Assembly: GCA_028868695.1 (NCBI GenBank)
Contig: JAGWTZ010000002.1
Coordinates: forward strand, 1 to 64,000
DNA length: 64,000 nucleotides
Source of the DNA: Alphaproteobacteria bacterium
Lineage (GTDB): Bacteria; Pseudomonadota; Alphaproteobacteria; Rhizobiales; Aestuariivirgaceae
Direction of reading: 5' to 3'
This document shows, piece by piece, positions 23,555 to 56,588 of this stretch. Position 1 is the stretch's first letter, and every line of letters starts with the position of its first letter. Under the pieces are notes generated by a model. It made no database searches. It worked only from the letters and a program-made list of their open reading frames with translations, and had not been told where the DNA came from. The translations under genes and the position numbers were made by a program.

Positions 23555-24139
23555 CTAGGCCAGCGCCTCGCGCACCCTCTTTTGCAGCTCCGGCACCACC
23601 TCGGCCTCGAACCATGGGTTCTTCTTGAACCACAGCAAATTGCGCGGGCTGGGGTGCGGCAGCGCCAGCATGCCCGGCGGCAAGTTTCGCCAATCTTTCA
23701 CAGTCTCGGCCAGCGTCGCCCTGGCCCGCTCCCGCAAATGCCAGGCAATGGCATATTGCCCGATGGCCAGGGTGAGCCGGATGTTGGGCGCCAGCGCCAG
23801 CAGTGGCCCGCGCCATTGTGCTGCACATTCAGGCCGCGGCGGCAGGTCACCGCCCTTGCCCCGGCCCGGGTAGCAAAAGCCCATGGGCAGGATGAGAAAG
23901 CGGGCGGGATCATAGAACTCATCGCGCGCCACCCCCAGCCAGCGGCGCAAACGCTCGCCGCTCGGGTCATTGAAGGGAATGCCGGTCTCATGCACGCGCG
24001 TGCCGGGCGCCTGCCCCGCAATCAACACGCGCCCGCGCGGATCAAACTGGAAAACTGGCCTTGGCCTAAGGGGAAGATGCGCGGCGCACAACCGGCAGGC
24101 CCGCACTTCTTCGATCAGTGGCTGGTGATCAGAGGTCAC
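23555..24139 (-). CDS. Uracil-DNA glycosylase family protein
   Basis: A roughly 194-residue member of the uracil-DNA glycosylase superfamily. It has CRLC, VLIAGQAPGTRVHETGIPFND (motif A-like, GxAPG), ILPMGFCYPG, LTLAIGQYA and the HPSPRN loop. A role in removing deaminated bases is inferred; some family members act on substrates other than uracil. The start is uncertain: GTG 24139 overlaps the end of the alcohol dehydrogenase gene by 11 bases, and other GTGs lie just upstream. It appears to be the last gene of the N-formylglutamate amidohydrolase operon. Confidence 0.82.
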   Translation of the reverse strand: MTSDHQPLIEEVRACRLCAAHLPLRPRPVFQFDPRGRVLIAGQAPGTRVHETGIPFNDPSGERLRRWLGVARDEFYDPARFLILPMGFCYPGRGKGGDLPPRPECAAQWRGPLLALAPNIRLTLAIGQYAIAWHLRERARATLAETVKDWRNLPPGMLALPHPSPRNLLWFKKNPWFEAEVVPELQKRVREALA

Positions 24140-25289
24140 CCACCACACACTTCTTGGCCAGCGCCTTGTATTGCTTCTCTGTGAACTGGATGGGGTTGCC
24201 ACCGGCGGAAGGATCCTTCACCGCCATCTTCGCCACTTCATCAAGGCGCTTGGTGTCGATGCCGATATCCGCCAGCTTGTGGGGGATGCCCAATTCCTTG
24301 CGCAAGGCCAGAACCCATTTGAGGAAGCCGTTGAACCCGCCCTTGATGCCGAGATAGGCGCTGGCGCGTTCAATGTCCTTCTCGATCTTCTTGCGGTTGG
24401 CTTTGAGAACATAGGGCATGACAATGCCATTGAGCAGCCCGTGATGCGCGTCATAAAGCCCACCGAACGGATGCGCCAGCGCATGCATCGCGCCAAGACC
24501 GCGCTGGAAGGCCGTGGCCCCCATGGCCGAGGCCACCAGCATGTTGCCGCGGGCATCAAGGTCCTTGGGCTTCTTCACCGCTTTCACAAGGTTCTCCTTG
24601 ATCAGCAGCATGCCTTCAAGCGCAACGCCCTTGGCCAGCGGGTGATAGAAGGGCGCGCAATAGGCTTCAAGGTTGTGCGACAGCGCGTCCATGCCCGTGG
24701 CGGCCGTGAGCTTCGCGGGCAGGCCCACCGTCAGCTCAGGGTCAAGGATCGAAACCTTGGGCATGATCGCCGGGTGGAAAATGATCTTCTTTTCATGGGT
24801 GGTGGGGTGCGTGACAACGCCGGCCCGGCCCACTTCAGAGCCGGTGCCCGCCGTGGTCGGCACGGCAATGATCGGCGCAATCCTGGAAGCATCAGCGCGC
24901 GTCCACCAATCGCCGATGTCTTCAAGATCAAACACCGAAATGGTCTGGCCATGCATCAGGGCGATCATCTTGCCGATATCGAGGCCAGAACCGCCGCCCA
25001 GCGCAATCACGCCATCATGCATCCCGGCCTTGAACGCCTTCACGCCCGCCGTGATGTTGGCTTCCACCGGATTGGGGCGCACATCCGAAAACAGCGCGGC
25101 ACCAAGGCCTGCGGCCTTGAGATCGGCCATCATGGCATCCACCATCGGCATCTTCGCAAGGCCCGGATCAGTCACCAGCAGCGGGCGCTTGATGCCAACG
25201 GCCTTGCAATGGTCTGCCAGTTCCTTGATGCGGCCCGCGCCAAACTTGATGGCGGTGGGGAAATTCAGGTTGCGATTGGGAAGGGTCAT
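24129..25289 (-). CDS. Iron-containing (group III) alcohol dehydrogenase
   Basis: A 386-residue Fe-ADH. The nucleotide-binding GGGSGLDIGK and TTAGTGSEV segments are intact. Metal ligands are visible in TGMDALSHNLEAY and MHALAHPFGGLYDAHHG. These enzymes interconvert alcohols and aldehydes with NAD(P). Its start overlaps the aldehyde dehydrogenase stop by four bases, so the alcohol-to-aldehyde-to-acid steps are probably sequential. In context it may oxidise an omega-hydroxyl on a gamma-glutamylated substrate (see findings). Confidence 0.92.
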   Translation of the reverse strand: MTLPNRNLNFPTAIKFGAGRIKELADHCKAVGIKRPLLVTDPGLAKMPMVDAMMADLKAAGLGAALFSDVRPNPVEANITAGVKAFKAGMHDGVIALGGGSGLDIGKMIALMHGQTISVFDLEDIGDWWTRADASRIAPIIAVPTTAGTGSEVGRAGVVTHPTTHEKKIIFHPAIMPKVSILDPELTVGLPAKLTAATGMDALSHNLEAYCAPFYHPLAKGVALEGMLLIKENLVKAVKKPKDLDARGNMLVASAMGATAFQRGLGAMHALAHPFGGLYDAHHGLLNGIVMPYVLKANRKKIEKDIERASAYLGIKGGFNGFLKWVLALRKELGIPHKLADIGIDTKRLDEVAKMAVKDPSAGGNPIQFTEKQYKALAKKCVVGDL

Positions 25290-26677
25290 ATCGTCGTCCT
25301 TAGGTGAAAGCTCTTCGGGCGGGTCAGCGCCTCATAGCCGATGGTGGAAAGGGTGGCGCCGCGGCCTGTGTCCTTGACTCCTGTCCATGTAAGGGCGGGG
25401 TCAAGATAGTCGCAGCGGTTCATGAAAACGGTGCCAGTTTCAACCTGAGCGCCGATCGCCTTGGCAGCGGCGGCGTCCGAGGTCCAGATCGCGGCAGTAA
25501 GGCCAAATTCCGAGTCATTCATCAACTGGATGGCTTCTTCGTCGGATGAAACCTTCATGATGCCGACAACAGGGCCGAAACTTTCATCGCGCATCACACT
25601 CATCTGATGGTTCACATCGGTGAGGATTTGCGGCGCAAGATAGGGCGTGCCCTTCTTCGAGACGGCAAACAGTCTCTCGTCGATATGCGCACGCGCCCCG
25701 CCACGGATCGCCGAGGCAATCTGCTTGCGCACAAAAGCCGCGGCATCGGCCTTGATCATCGGCCCCAGCGTGGTGGCTTCATCCAGCGGTGAGCCGAGCA
25801 CATATGTCTTGGTCAGTTCCACCGCACCTTCCACAAAATCCTTGTAGAGCGATTTGTGCACATAAATGCGCTCTATGCCACAGCAGCTTTGCCCGGAATT
25901 GAAGAAAGCGCCATCCACCAGGTTTTCAACCGCATGGGCGAGGTTGGCATCGCTGCGCACATAGGCAGGGTCCTTGCCGCCGAGCTCCAACCCGACAGAA
26001 AGGAAATGCCCCGCCGCGGCGCGCTCGATGGCCTTGCCGCCGGGCACCGAGCCGGTGAAGCACACCATGTTGGCCATGCGGCTGGAGATCACATCGGCGG
26101 CTTGCTCATGGCTCATCACCAGATTGGCGAACAAGCCTTTGGGCAGCCCCGCCTTCACAAAGGCCTTGGCGAAGCGCTCGCCCACCAGCAGCGTGTGCGA
26201 GGCATGCTTCAGCACCACGGCATTGCCCGCCATCAGCGCCGGGATGATGGAATTCACTGCCGTGAGATAAGGATAGTTCCACGGCGCAATGGTGAACACC
26301 ACGCCCAGCGGCACGCGCTGAATGAAACGCTCGAAGCCATCCTTCTTGGCGGGCACAACATTGGCCAGCGCAGCCTCGGCAATGCTGATCATGTGCCGCG
26401 CACGCTCTTCAAAGCCGCGCAATTCGCCCGCGCCATAGCGCACCGGGCGGCCCATCTGCCAGGCCAGCTCCGGCACGATCTCATCCTTCATCGCCAGCAT
26501 GGCATCGACCGCCGCCGAGCAATACTTCGCCCGTTCGGCAATGCTCAGCGCGCCCCAGGCCTTCTGGGCATCGCGCGCCGCTGAGAAAGCAGCAGCAACC
26601 TCTTTCTTGGAGGCAATCTTGCGCTTGGCCACGATGGAGCCATCGGCCGGCGAAATGGAGGTGATGATGTTGGCCAT
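25286..26677 (-). CDS. Aldehyde dehydrogenase family protein
   Basis: A 463-residue NAD(P)-dependent aldehyde dehydrogenase. It shows the cofactor site FTIAPWNYPYL, the FTGSVPGG glycine motif, catalytic Glu in LELGGKDPAY and catalytic Cys in FNSGQSCCGIERIYV. The C-terminal EESFGPVV-like segment is DESFGPVVGI. It resembles succinate-semialdehyde and lactaldehyde dehydrogenases; substrate is not decided. It sits between the glutamine-synthetase-like gene (13-base gap) and the Fe-ADH gene (four-base overlap). Confidence 0.92.
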   Translation of the reverse strand: MANIITSISPADGSIVAKRKIASKKEVAAAFSAARDAQKAWGALSIAERAKYCSAAVDAMLAMKDEIVPELAWQMGRPVRYGAGELRGFEERARHMISIAEAALANVVPAKKDGFERFIQRVPLGVVFTIAPWNYPYLTAVNSIIPALMAGNAVVLKHASHTLLVGERFAKAFVKAGLPKGLFANLVMSHEQAADVISSRMANMVCFTGSVPGGKAIERAAAGHFLSVGLELGGKDPAYVRSDANLAHAVENLVDGAFFNSGQSCCGIERIYVHKSLYKDFVEGAVELTKTYVLGSPLDEATTLGPMIKADAAAFVRKQIASAIRGGARAHIDERLFAVSKKGTPYLAPQILTDVNHQMSVMRDESFGPVVGIMKVSSDEEAIQLMNDSEFGLTAAIWTSDAAAAKAIGAQVETGTVFMNRCDYLDPALTWTGVKDTGRGATLSTIGYEALTRPKSFHLRTTI

Positions 26678-26690
26678 GGAAAAGCCCTGC

Positions 26691-28067
26691 TCAGTAACGC
26701 TCGAAGCCGCGCTTCAATTCAAGGTCAGTGATGCGGCGGTCAAACTCCAGCTGCTCCCACTTGGCGGTATGAACATAATGGTCAACCACATCATCGCCCA
26801 TCACCCCGCGCAGGAAGGCTGATTCATCCAGCAGCTTGGTGGCGTCACGCAGCGTCTTGGGAATTTCGCGCAGCTTGCGCGAGGTGTCATACACATCGCC
26901 CGAGGCCACGGCTTCCAGATCCATCTTCTTCTCAATGCCATCAAGGCCCGCCGCAATGAGGGCCGAGAAGGCAAGATAGGGATTGAGATCGGCCCCGCCC
27001 ACGCGGCATTCCACGCGGATGGCCTTTGAATCCGCCCCGCAGATGCGGAAGCCCGCCGTGCGGTTGTCGAAGCTCCACACCGCGCGGGTGGGCGCAAATG
27101 TGCCTGCCATAAAACGCTTGTAGGAGTTGATATAAGGCGCAAGGAAATAGGTGATCTCTCCGGCATGGGCGAGCTGGCCCGCGAGATAATGCTTCATCAT
27201 GGGCGACATGCCGTGATCGCCGCTCTTGTCGAAGAAATGCGGCGTCTTGCCATCGGAAGACCACAGCGATTGATGGATATGCGAGCTGTTGCCCGCCATG
27301 CCATAATCCCATTTGGCCATGAAGGTGACGGCCTTGCCCACGCCATAGGCGATTTCCTTGGCGCCGTTCTTGATGATCGCATGGGTGTCGGCCATGCGCA
27401 GCGCTTCATCATATTTGACGTTGATTTCTTCCTGGCCCGGGCCCCACTCGCCCTTGGAGTTCTCAACCACGATGCCTGCCCCGGCAAGCCCATTGCGAAG
27501 GGCGCGCATGTAAACCTCTTCCTTCGAGGTTTGCAGGATGTTGTAGTCTTCGATGTAGTAGCCTGATGTCTTGAGGCTGCGATAACCCTTCTGATGCGCA
27601 AGCTCATAGGTGTCATCAAACAGGAAGAACTCGAGTTCCGAAGCCATATAGGCTTTCATCTTCATGTCATCGAGGCGCTTCAGCTGCTTCTTCAGCATGG
27701 CCCGGGGGCTGTGCGGCGTGTCCTGATGCGTGTGATGGTCCAGCACATCGCAGATCACCAGCGCCGTGCCTGGCAGCCAGGGCGTCTTGCGCATGGTTGA
27801 AAGATCAGGCTTCAGCACAAAGTCGCCATAGCCCTTTTCCCAGCTAGTGGCCTTGTAGCCGGGCACCGGCTCCATCTCGATGTCCACACCCAGAAGATAG
27901 TTGCAGCCGTGGGTTTCCTCATAGCCACCCTCGGCAAAATATGCGGCATGAAAACGCTTGCCGATCAGCCGTCCTTGCATGTCCACAAGTGCCGCCACCA
28001 CGGTGTCGATCGTGCCGGCCTTCACCTCGGCCCTCAGCTGCTCAAGCGTCAGCATGCCATTGCTCAT
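26691..28067 (-). CDS. Glutamine synthetase-like ligase (probable gamma-glutamyl-amine synthetase)
   Basis: A 458-residue member of the GlnA superfamily. Landmarks are GNSSHIHQSLW, NSYKRFMAGTFAPTRAVWSFDNRTAG, RVECRVGGADLNPYLAFSALIAAGLDGI and a GS-type N terminus. It lacks the adenylylation-loop tyrosine context of housekeeping GlnA and resembles the PuuA/GlnT/IpuC group. That group joins glutamate to amines such as putrescine, ethanolamine or isopropylamine derivatives. ATG 28067 with GGGAGAG upstream was chosen over an upstream start. It overlaps the amidohydrolase gene by four bases. Substrate is inferred from neighbours only. Confidence 0.9.
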   Translation of the reverse strand: MSNGMLTLEQLRAEVKAGTIDTVVAALVDMQGRLIGKRFHAAYFAEGGYEETHGCNYLLGVDIEMEPVPGYKATSWEKGYGDFVLKPDLSTMRKTPWLPGTALVICDVLDHHTHQDTPHSPRAMLKKQLKRLDDMKMKAYMASELEFFLFDDTYELAHQKGYRSLKTSGYYIEDYNILQTSKEEVYMRALRNGLAGAGIVVENSKGEWGPGQEEINVKYDEALRMADTHAIIKNGAKEIAYGVGKAVTFMAKWDYGMAGNSSHIHQSLWSSDGKTPHFFDKSGDHGMSPMMKHYLAGQLAHAGEITYFLAPYINSYKRFMAGTFAPTRAVWSFDNRTAGFRICGADSKAIRVECRVGGADLNPYLAFSALIAAGLDGIEKKMDLEAVASGDVYDTSRKLREIPKTLRDATKLLDESAFLRGVMGDDVVDHYVHTAKWEQLEFDRRITDLELKRGFERY

Positions 28068-28819
28068 TTCGTCTCTCCCAGTTTGGCGCCCGCTTGCAAA
28101 AGGGGAATCGAAAGCCGCTGCGCCCATTGTTGTTGGTTGCGTTCACTTTCAATGAGGTCATTGCAGATTTCAATCATCAGATGATGCAAGCCGCGCGGGG
28201 CCGCATGCAAATTCAGCAAATGCAGCACGCCATCCTTCGGCCCGTAGGGTTCATTGAGCATGGCGCTGATGCCGGGGAAGGATTTGATCAGCATGTTCGC
28301 CAGCCATGTGTCGCGGTCAAACAGCAGGCCAAGGTCCACCGCGCGCCGCTTGCCCTTGTACACGCGCGTGAAGGAGTGGATGGATACCACCGCCGTGGGC
28401 CTGCCCTCTGCGGCGCGCGCATCAAGATACTGCTCCAGCGCATGGTTGAACGGCCGGTAAATTTCGCGGGTGCGCGCCAGCCGCGCCGCCGCACCAAGGC
28501 CCTTGTTGCCGGGAATCTCGAAAACCTCGCTCAATTCCGGCATCGCGCCGGGGGATTCTGGCGGCCGGTTGCAATCATAGACCAGCCGCGAAACCTTCTG
28601 CACCAGCAGCGGCGCGTCAATCAGCTTGGACAGCAGCCTTGCCGTGCCTTCAGCGCCAATGTCATAGGCAATATGCCGCGCCAGGTCAGCCTCGGCGAGG
28701 CCCAGCCGGTTATAGGCTGCGGGAATGTGGTTGGAGGCATGCTCGCACACCAGCACGAAGGGCGACTTGCCCTCGCCATTCACCCACTCGAAAACCTCAA
28801 CTCCGGCAGCCATATCCAT
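28064..28819 (-). CDS. N-formylglutamate amidohydrolase family protein
   Basis: A 251-residue protein of the HutG-like N-formylglutamate deformylase family. It has VLVCEHASNHIPAAYNRLGL, VYDCNRPPESPGAMPE, VVSIHSFTRV and HHLMIEICNDLI. The CEHASN and SIHSF blocks carry the predicted metal ligands. Classical members act in histidine degradation, but no hut genes are nearby. In this operon it may instead hydrolyse a gamma-glutamyl or N-acyl-glutamate product. ATG 28819 is preceded by AGGAG. It is the first gene of a minus-strand operon and divergent from the GMC oxidoreductase. Confidence 0.88.
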   Translation of the reverse strand: MDMAAGVEVFEWVNGEGKSPFVLVCEHASNHIPAAYNRLGLAEADLARHIAYDIGAEGTARLLSKLIDAPLLVQKVSRLVYDCNRPPESPGAMPELSEVFEIPGNKGLGAAARLARTREIYRPFNHALEQYLDARAAEGRPTAVVSIHSFTRVYKGKRRAVDLGLLFDRDTWLANMLIKSFPGISAMLNEPYGPKDGVLHLLNLHAAPRGLHHLMIEICNDLIESERNQQQWAQRLSIPLLQAGAKLGETK

Positions 28820-28903
28820 TCTCACTCCTGTTTTGGGCATATTTCCAAATGCCGCGGCCCTTGCCAAGCGATCTCAGGCGCCTGACGATTCCGCGTGATC
28901 AAG

Positions 28904-28944
28904 TGTCGCAAAACCCGCGCGGTCCTTGCAGTGCATAAGCGACA
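28904..28944. promoter_or_regulatory. Inverted TGTCGC repeat in divergent promoter region
   Basis: TGTCGC (28904-28909) and GCGACA (28939-28944) face each other across 29 bases, between the amidohydrolase and GMC oxidoreductase genes. It is a possible operator shared by both transcripts. Six-base arms are short, so chance is possible. Confidence 0.25.
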
Positions 28945-28967
28945 AGCACACATGCTTCAGGTGCAAC

Positions 28968-30638
28968 ATGGCGAAACTGGCCGCAAACACATTTGACTTC
29001 ATCATCATTGGCTCTGGCTCGGCCGGCTCGGTTCTGGCCAGCCGCCTGTCGGAAGACCGGCGCAACAAGGTTCTGGTGCTGGAATATGGCGGCACCGACC
29101 GCGGCCCCCTGATCCAGATGCCCTCGGCCCTGTCCTACCCCATGAACATGAATCTCTACAATTGGGGTTTCGAGACCGAGCCTGAGCCGCACCTGAACAA
29201 CCGCCGCCTTGTCACCCCGCGTGGCAAGGTGATGGGCGGCTCCAGCTCCATCAACGGCATGGTCTATGTCCGTGGCCACGCCAAGGATTTCGACACATGG
29301 GCCGAAATGGGCGCCACCGGCTGGTCCTATGCCGATGTGCTTCCCTATTTCAAGCGCCAGGAGAATGTCGAGGGTGGCGATCCCGGCTGGCGCGGCCATG
29401 ATGGCCCGCTTTACGTCAAGAAGGGCATCCGCAAGAACCCGCTCTATCAGGCTTTCATTGATGCCGGCCACCAGGCGGGCTATCCCGTCAGCCAGGACTA
29501 CAACGGCCACCAGCAGGAAGGCTTCGCCGCCTTCGAGATGACCGTGCACAACGGCCTGCGCTGGTCAGCCGCCAATGCCTATCTCTGGCCTGCGATCAAG
29601 AAGGGCCGCATCGACATGGAAACCGGCGCCATGGCGCGGCGCATCCTGTTTGATGGCAAGAAGGCCATCGGCGTGGAATATGAGCAGGGCGGCGAAATCA
29701 AGACCGCCATGGCCAGCCGCGAAGTGATCGTCTCGGCTTCCACCATCAACTCCCCGGCCATCCTGCAGCGTTCCGGCATCGGCGCGCCGGAGGTTTTGAA
29801 GGCCGCTGGCGTGAATTTGGTCCATGCCCTTCCCGGCGTGGGCGAAAATCTGCACGATCACCTCGAAATCTATTTCCAGCTGCGCTGCCTGCAGCCCATC
29901 ACCCTGAATTCAAAGCTGGGCCTGTTCTCAAAGGCGAAGATCGGGCTTGAATGGCTGCTGTTCGGCACCGGCCTTGGCGCCACCAACCATTTCGAAAGCT
30001 GCGGCTTCATCCGCAGCCGCGCCGGCATCGAATACCCCGATATCCAGTATCACTTCCTGCCAGCGGCCATGCGCTATGACGGCAAGGTGGCCTTCGCCGG
30101 CCATGGCTTCCAGGTGCATGTGGGTCCGATGCGGTCAAAGTCGCGCGGCCATGTCCGCATCAGGAACGCGGATGCCAGGCAAAGCCCGGAAATCTTCTTC
30201 AACTACATGAGCCATGAGGATGACTGGAAGGAATTCCGCGCCTGCGTTCGCCTGACGCGCGAGCTCTTCCATCAGGAAGCGATGAAGCCTTACGCTGGCG
30301 AAGAGATTCAGCCGGGATCAGCCGTCCAGTCGGACGCTGAAATTGACGCCTTCATCCGCGAACATTGCGAAAGCGCCTATCACCCCTGCGGCACCTGCAA
30401 GATGGGCTCCACCAAGGACAAGATGGCGGTGGTCGATCCCGAATGCCGCGTCATCGGCACCCAGAACCTGCGCGTGGTGGATAGCTCGATCATGCCGCAG
30501 GTGACCAACGGCAACCTCAACGCGCCATCCATCATGATTGGCGAAAAGGGCGCCGATCACATTTTGGGGCGGCAAATGCTGCCGCCCTCAAATCTCGAAC
30601 CCTGGATCAACCCCAACTGGAAGAAGAGCCAACGCTGA
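28968..30638 (+). CDS. GMC family oxidoreductase, choline dehydrogenase (BetA)-like
   Basis: A 556-residue FAD enzyme. It has the N-terminal dinucleotide fold ([20 protein letters not shown]) and the GMC signature [20 protein letters not shown]. It also has [11 protein letters not shown] and the C-terminal [10 protein letters not shown]...VVDSSIMP...[17 protein letters not shown]. Similarity of layout to BetA, which oxidises choline to betaine aldehyde, is clear, but substrate could be another amino alcohol. ATG 28968 starts the conserved N terminus; the open frame extends 14 codons upstream. No betB or betI neighbours are present. It is divergent from the glutamine-synthetase-like operon. 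Confidence 0.9.
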
Positions 30639-54977: not shown

Positions 54978-56537
54978 CTAGTTCACGCTGTCTGGCAATT
55001 CCCGCTCGCGCCGCGCAACGAAGGCAGCCAGCTCTTCGGCCTTGGCTTCGTCCATCTTGGGTTTTTCATAGGCCGCCAGCATGGCCCGCGCCTTGTCGCG
55101 CCCGCGCGTGTCATGGTCCTTGGCCCCTTCCGCGCTCCATTGCTCGAAGGAGTTGAAATCCATGATCGAAGGCATGAAGAAGGCCTTGTCGAAATGTTCC
55201 AGCGTGTGCTGCGTGCCGAGGAAATGCCCGGCCGGGCCCACTTCGCGCACCGCCGCCATGGCATCCTTGAAATCATCAAACTTCAGGCCCTGGCCATATT
55301 TGTACCAGCCCGCCACCTGCTCGCAATCCGTGACAAACTTGGAATAGCCGCAAGCAAGTCCCGCTTCCAGCCAGCCAGCCGAATGCCAGATGTAGTTGGC
55401 GCCGGACAGCACCGCGGCATGCATCAGCATGTTGGATTCATAGCCCGCCTGCGCATCATTGAGCTTGGAGCCCACATGGAACCCGGACGTGCGCCAAGGC
55501 AACTTGTATTTGCGCGCCAGCTGCCCCATCACGAACATCATCTGGGCCGCCTCGGGCGTGCCACCCATCGGCGCGCCGGACTTCATGTCCACAGTCACCA
55601 TGAACTGGCCATAGATCACCGGCGCGCCCTTGCGGATCAGCTGCGTGAAGGCCACGCCCGCCAAGGCCTCGGCATTCACCTGCGCCACCGCGCCGATTGA
55701 TGAGGCGGAAGTCGAAGCGCCACACAGCGCGAATGGGGCTGCGATGATCGGCTGGTTGTGGCTGGCATAGACGCGCATGGCATCCAGCATCGTCTGGTCC
55801 CACACAAGGGGCGAATTGCAGTTGGTGATGGAAACAACAACCGTATTGTCCTTCACAAAGGCGTCGCCGAACACGATGCCCGCCATCTTCATCACATCCT
55901 CGGCGCGCTCCTTCGAGGTGACAATGCCCATATACGGCTTGTCGGAATGGGTCATCGCCGAATGGATGATGTGCAAGTGCCGCTTCGGCACCGGGATTTC
56001 CATCGGTTCGCAGATGATCGAGCTGGCGGAATGGATATGCGGCGCCATCTGCGCCAGCTTGTGGAAGTTGTTGAGGTCGCCCAGCGAGCCATAGCGGCGC
56101 ACATTGTCAAGGTCCCGCACATAGGGCGCGCCATACATGGGGATGAAGATTGAATTCTTGCCGCCCACCCGCACCGTGCGCTCAGGGTTGCGCGCGTGCA
56201 GGGTGAATTCCTCTGGCGCTGTGGAGATCAGCTGCATCAGCAGCGCGCGGTCAATGCGCACGCGCGTGCCCTGCACATCCGCCCCTGCCGCCTTCCACAT
56301 GGCGGGCGCCGCATCATCGCGGAACTCGCAGCCCACCTCTTCGAGGATTTTCAGTGACTCGTCGTGGATCAGTTCCACCGCCTCATTGGGCAGGATCTCA
56401 TAGGTGGGAATGTTGCGCACCAGCGCGGGCATTGACACCATCGGCGCGCCGCGCAGCGCGCGCCGCCCTTCGCGGCCGCCTCCGCCGCGCCGGGCGCTGG
56501 TGGAAGTGGTTTCAACAACTGCGCTTGTGTCTGACAT
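54978..56537 (-). CDS. Trimethylamine methyltransferase (MttB) family protein, non-pyrrolysine
   Basis: A 519-residue MttB-superfamily protein (TIM barrel with the ILxEVGCEFRDDAA and GTPEAAQMMFVMGQLARKYKLPWRTSG blocks). The frame is uninterrupted with no in-frame TAG, so it belongs to the non-Pyl group. Characterised members demethylate quaternary amines such as glycine betaine, proline betaine or carnitine and pass the methyl to a corrinoid protein. No corrinoid protein gene lies next to it. ATG 56537 was chosen over an upstream start. It is transcribed after a LysR-type gene with a strong palindrome between. Confidence 0.9.
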   Translation of the reverse strand: MSDTSAVVETTSTSARRGGGGREGRRALRGAPMVSMPALVRNIPTYEILPNEAVELIHDESLKILEEVGCEFRDDAAPAMWKAAGADVQGTRVRIDRALLMQLISTAPEEFTLHARNPERTVRVGGKNSIFIPMYGAPYVRDLDNVRRYGSLGDLNNFHKLAQMAPHIHSASSIICEPMEIPVPKRHLHIIHSAMTHSDKPYMGIVTSKERAEDVMKMAGIVFGDAFVKDNTVVVSITNCNSPLVWDQTMLDAMRVYASHNQPIIAAPFALCGASTSASSIGAVAQVNAEALAGVAFTQLIRKGAPVIYGQFMVTVDMKSGAPMGGTPEAAQMMFVMGQLARKYKLPWRTSGFHVGSKLNDAQAGYESNMLMHAAVLSGANYIWHSAGWLEAGLACGYSKFVTDCEQVAGWYKYGQGLKFDDFKDAMAAVREVGPAGHFLGTQHTLEHFDKAFFMPSIMDFNSFEQWSAEGAKDHDTRGRDKARAMLAAYEKPKMDEAKAEELAAFVARRERELPDSVN

Positions 56538-56588
56538 GATGGGGCCTGCAAGGTTTGCTTGGGCCATCATCGCCCGCGCCCGCGCCAC

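Follow-up and report, generated by a model that had tools for sequence, protein, structure and literature searches.

We think that the window, that is, the whole stretch of 64,000 nucleotides of alphaproteobacterial DNA analysed here, very likely contains a compact operon for the gamma-glutamylation of ethanolamine, as far as can be judged from its sequence. A glutamine synthetase-like (GS-like) ligase would use ATP to join glutamate to the amine of ethanolamine, an Fe-alcohol dehydrogenase (Fe-ADH) would oxidise the hydroxyl to an aldehyde, an aldehyde dehydrogenase (ALDH) would make gamma-glutamylglycine, and a zinc amidohydrolase of the FGase family would cleave the latter to glutamate and glycine. 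We infer the substrate and all four of these reactions, and document gene content, coupling, family placement and synteny. A preliminary description of the same DNA had proposed this pathway for an amino alcohol, very probably rightly, with ethanolamine as that amino alcohol. Homology and synteny speak in favour of its mechanism (a ligase outside GlnA and PuuA, a gene order published for ethanolamine, and EtoX in many homologous operons), whereas the novelty that it claimed for the amidohydrolase step did not hold. The window would add a transporter-less form of a known route for the recycling of nitrogen and carbon from membrane phospholipids, of which ethanolamine is a breakdown product.

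Genes of the predicted operon and its divergent neighbour, with positions in the window
Gene and predicted role	Position	Strand	Match and remarks
FGase-family gene, predicted gamma-glutamylglycine amidohydrolase	28064..28867	-	PF05013 2.6e-41; likely ATG 28840
GS-like ligase, predicted ethanolamine gamma-glutamylase	26691..28127	-	PF00120 2e-98; likely ATG 28067
ALDH, predicted gamma-glutamyl-acetaldehyde-amide dehydrogenase	25286..26677	-	PF00171 8.4e-121
Fe-ADH, predicted gamma-glutamylethanolamide dehydrogenase	24129..25289	-	PF00465 1.9e-47
GMC oxidoreductase, BetA-like choline dehydrogenase, divergent neighbour	28926..30638	+	TIGR01810 841.3 bits; likely ATG 28968

The minus-strand genes are transcribed in the order FGase, GS-like ligase, ALDH, Fe-ADH, with ATGA overlaps at the FGase/GS and ALDH/Fe-ADH junctions and a gap of 13 bases between GS and ALDH; ALDH and Fe-ADH are in this way coupled to the ligase. 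These junctions, together with the Pfam and NCBIfam matches, bear out the gene set, the tight coupling and the divergent BetA-like GMC gene that had first been described. No promoter-like site was found between positions 23900 and 31000 (2.1 would be expected by chance), no transporter gene lies inside the operon, and no RpiR regulator is present among the window genes that were read adjoining it; these two absences count against our reading. The CFA, SBP5, ArgE, enolase-like and Pot-type neighbours (31-42 kb) were considered as further parts of the pathway and rejected, since they are near the operon in only two of the 15 loci of the genus in the stretches read (L192 and L201).

This four-gene ethanolamine route is of an already described kind, with a compact local layout. 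Westermann 2023 (PMC10132767) described in Phaeobacter sp. MED193 an operon RpiR-GGAH-EtoV-EtoW-EtoX-ETAGA-GAADDH-GETADH, of which five proteins rise on phosphorylethanolamine; EtoX binds ethanolamine (Kd 7.9 uM), and the steps past this binding are predicted or proposed, the pathway being called predicted in the figure of that paper. Compared by this published description, the Phaeobacter operon has the same four enzyme roles as the window, a gamma-glutamylglycine amidohydrolase standing at the FGase position, and the order amidohydrolase-ligase-ALDH-ADH becomes that of the window once the transporter genes are removed. It has EtoVWX and RpiR, whereas the window has neither and instead carries a divergent BetA-like gene. 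The same paper cites Vetting 2015 for a route demonstrated in C. salexigens and A. tumefaciens C58, whereas for Krysenko 2019 (PMC6529630) the route in C. salexigens is one predicted in silico. Compared by a published table (Table 2 of a 2022 review, PMC9397018), the four C. salexigens steps are assigned to PF00120, PF00465, PF00171 and PF05013, that is, to the same Pfam families for the same steps as in the window. The C. salexigens pathway differs from that of the window in its link to the TRAP protein Csal_0678, which binds ethanolamine (PMC4646407); one paper on this organism, in the portion available to us, names Csal_0679 simply as one of five putative glutamine synthetases. GlnA4 of Streptomyces coelicolor, compared by its description in PMC6529630, glutamylates ethanolamine, as is predicted for the window ligase, and its cluster differs from the window operon by a short-chain dehydrogenase and by a glutamine amidotransferase, both listed in the legend of Fig. 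2.

The preliminary description regarded it as new that an N-formylglutamate amidohydrolase should carry out the last step. This claim fails, because such an enzyme was already proposed for this step by Krysenko 2019 (SCO1615, of the formylglutamate-amidohydrolase family) and is tabulated in PMC9397018, in addition to the amidohydrolase at the FGase position in PMC10132767. Within the parts of the pathway literature available to us, we found no enzyme assay of the FGase step on gamma-glutamylglycine.

The grouping of the window genes is not a matter of chance, because the same families recur around homologous ligases in other genomes, as emerged from the comparison of neighbourhoods that the preliminary description had suggested. 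Among 80 named loci, which are the best matches listed of one GS scan, lean to the Hyphomicrobiales and in some cases end at contig ends, ALDH accompanies GS, in the same orientation and no more than 6 kb away, in 74, Fe-ADH in 70 and FGase in 63. An RpiR gene lies near GS in 56 of these 80 listed matches, and FGase linkage is lacking in 17 of them; this linkage is not universal, which counts against our reading. What stands between FGase and GS in the 63 loci (again among the matches listed) is a TRAP transporter in 22, an amino-acid permease in 37 and nothing in 4; the TRAP transporter and RpiR are frequent, neither of them universal, in the homologous operons. A gene order found in relatives is RpiR / FGase-DctQ-DctM-DctP-GS-ALDH-FeADH, with the extra genes DctM, DctP, DctQ and RpiR identified by Pfam. 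The rhizobial form (S. meliloti pSymB, L157, and Agrobacterium, L090) has FGase, GS, ALDH and FeADH as in the window and differs from it by an amino-acid permease between FGase and GS and by a divergent RpiR. An even draw of 289 genomes of the class gave 31 with the ligase, the window's own included; in the 30 other loci, all of which were read, FGase is nearby in 8, and ALDH adjoins the ligase in 14 and Fe-ADH in 23. FGase linkage is absent in 22 of these 30, and another locus, L041, ends at a contig edge before the FGase position.

The Pseudomonas loci among the matches listed (L131, L134, L140, L143 and L145-L148) carry the ligase, seven of the eight together with ALDH and Fe-ADH; FGase was seen in none of these eight listed loci, one of which (L148) is truncated 0.7 kb upstream of the ligase, and when seven neighbouring genes from two of the loci were scanned against Pfam, no hydrolase was found.

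We favour ethanolamine as the substrate because the gene order of the relatives matches that of the Phaeobacter operon, because 4uab is matched by the DctP of an operon of this kind (L059), and because both the ligase and the FGase of the window sit in operon-linked groups of their trees. The sole PDB sequence that this DctP matches at 1e-40 is 4uab/4xf5 (646 bits), and we take 4uab to be Csal_0678 with ethanolamine. In the PDB, the window ligase is closest to 11zs (661 bits), followed by 5dm3 (559 bits; presumably Csal_0679), with a drop to 180 bits for the glutamine synthetase that comes next. In the GS tree the window ligase falls within a clade of 58 rows that holds TRAP- and permease-linked ligases and leaves GlnA and PuuA outside (SH-aLRT 94, quick search); many members of this clade share an operon with an EtoX TRAP transporter or an amino-acid permease. 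The family is a discrete one, because of 152 GS rows, which include some duplicates, 15 share 25-31% identity with the window ligase and the rest at least 49%.

Could the same chemistry serve for a different small amino alcohol, for example propanolamine, alaninol or N-methylethanolamine? We consider this improbable. The neighbouring BetA-like gene, which is beside the operon in all 15 loci read in the genus, would fit a choline-related substrate, and the transporter that marks the substrate elsewhere is absent here. However, the window ligase shares 61-69% identity with the 25 TRAP-linked ligases of the named loci (among the matches listed; for such ligases in the class draw the figure is as low as 56%), and the tree places it among the TRAP- and permease-linked ligases. 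Choline itself has no N-H and cannot be glutamylated. The beta-hydroxyaspartate cycle consumes glycine, and the presence of the four genes beside bhc genes on two plasmids, of Aminobacter (L155) and Paracoccus (L156) (2 of 6 plasmid loci opened), is what would be expected if glycine is a product of the predicted ethanolamine route. These two plasmids were typed conjugative and mobilizable.

The predicted hydrolase deserves separate consideration, as its family carries the Pfam name of N-formylglutamate amidohydrolase, and one may ask whether it is a deformylase of the histidine pathway that stands in the operon by chance. The predicted structure of the window FGase (pLDDT 92) resembles 2q7s, which is annotated as an N-formylglutamate amidohydrolase (Z 23.3), and is closest to 2odf, Atu2144 (Z 36.6), in a list that is a second look at Foldseek's matches only, so that families absent from it may still be related. 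The FGase tree was built from 82 of 119 rows. In it, 58 further FGases linked to operons, that of Agrobacterium (L090) among them, form a group with the window FGase, whereas 17 unlinked paralogues, of which several come from the same genomes as operon FGases, stand apart; the split has an SH-aLRT of 87 (quick search), and of six rows classed as unlinked within the operon group one is a duplicate of an operon gene and five belong to loci of the TRAP type that are truncated or have no ligase. Moreover, another FGase of the genome (C37) matches the Pfam family better, with 245.9 bits against 143.2 for the window FGase, and FGase is kept with GS in 63 of the 80 named loci among the matches listed. 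We therefore rejected the window FGase as a HutG-like deformylase, on its grouping with the operon FGases and on the stronger FGase at C37, and its chance presence in the operon seems to us very improbable.

As a gamma-glutamylglycine hydrolase, which is the role that we predict, the window enzyme has a solved relative in Atu2144 (2odf). The FGase of the Agrobacterium operon (L090) matches this protein end to end (525 bits), and His43, His65, Asp69, His164 and Glu233 are invariant in 36 FGase sequences. Poly-gamma-glutamate hydrolases have Z scores of 11.8-12.9 against the window model, which we do not take as functional evidence, because they are at most about 1 unit above those of other amidases and carboxypeptidases; the PghL paper (PMC6506827) had remarked on the resemblance to 2odf. 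FGases also occur near distant GS-like genes (25-30% identical to the window ligase) at L071, L072 and L074, hinting at a wider use of this family with gamma-glutamyl ligases.

The phylogenetic placement of the ligase, which had been suggested at the outset, puts it outside both GlnA and PuuA, in agreement with the model scores. It reaches 263 bits against the GlnA model TIGR00653 (cut-off 429) and 186 against the PuuA model NF045547 (cut-off 650), and it is also below the NCBIfam cut-off for type III GS. The flap glutamate of GlnA (GYEAP in E. coli) is replaced by phenylalanine in the window ligase (GTFAP) and in all ten aligned relatives, and is a tyrosine in PuuA in the alignment against E. 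coli GlnA; given the role of this glutamate in GlnA, its replacement argues against a GlnA identity. A housekeeping GlnA was rejected on the score below the TIGR00653 cut-off, the flap phenylalanine and the tree position, and a PuuA-type gamma-glutamylputrescine synthetase on its NF045547 score (186 against 650 bits) and the tree position. That the ligase is just a glutamine synthetase isoform with unrelated neighbours, as its PF00120 membership might suggest, is hardly credible in view of these scores and the flap substitution, of a stronger GS match elsewhere in the genome (at C99), which the tree places with E. coli GlnA, and of the conserved synteny around the ligase. A further GS of this genome (G000:C9:8484-9494) groups with PuuA in the tree; in L194-L198 and L202-L204 such a second, PuuA-grouping GS is located a few kb past the GMC gene, and in the window's genome it is on another contig.

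Within the genus, the ligase is present in 32 of 36 genomes, and 15 loci were read. FGase and the BetA-like GMC gene occur in all 15, RpiR in 7 and Fe-ADH in 14, the remaining locus ending at a contig edge. ALDH is found in 5, and none was seen by the operon in L193-L198 and L201-L204, which keep FGase, GS and Fe-ADH; this counts against our reading. None of the 15 loci has an EtoX-type TRAP transporter or a permease of the type found at L037. EtoX was not found in the window's genome either, with matches in all five control genomes; neither was the L037-type permease, for which the control was weak (a match in the genome of L037 itself and in one of three further genomes), nor EutB, for which only E. 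coli matched among 14 controls. The negative results for EtoX and for this permease also weigh against our reading.

The divergent GMC gene is, by model score, a probable BetA: it passes the betA model TIGR01810 (841.3 bits against a cut-off of 732.1), and five of the genome's six other GMC genes (all but that at C62 were scanned) score 315-483 bits, all below this cut-off. For BetB, the genome has 11 matches and none above the cut-off (best 456.5 against 668.6 bits). The simplest reading is that genes for the choline and ethanolamine head groups lie side by side. A more speculative possibility, which we regard as unlikely, is that in this genus the ethanolamine unit has recruited the BetA-like flavoprotein, which would oxidise gamma-glutamylethanolamide, perhaps all the way to the acid, alongside or instead of Fe-ADH and ALDH; the preliminary description had offered the GMC enzyme as a possible oxidase of the hydroxyl. 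We raise it because all 15 genus loci read have this gene next to the operon whereas 10 of them lack ALDH, and because a GMC gene takes the place of Fe-ADH after GS-ALDH in a Thiothrix MAG. In the latter (L123, 9947-14433), GS-ALDH is directly followed by a GMC oxidoreductase at the usual place of Fe-ADH, suggesting that it replaces this enzyme. Elsewhere in the window, a long frame at 54978-56588 has a translation that resembles, by eye, the trimethylamine-methyltransferase (MttB) family.
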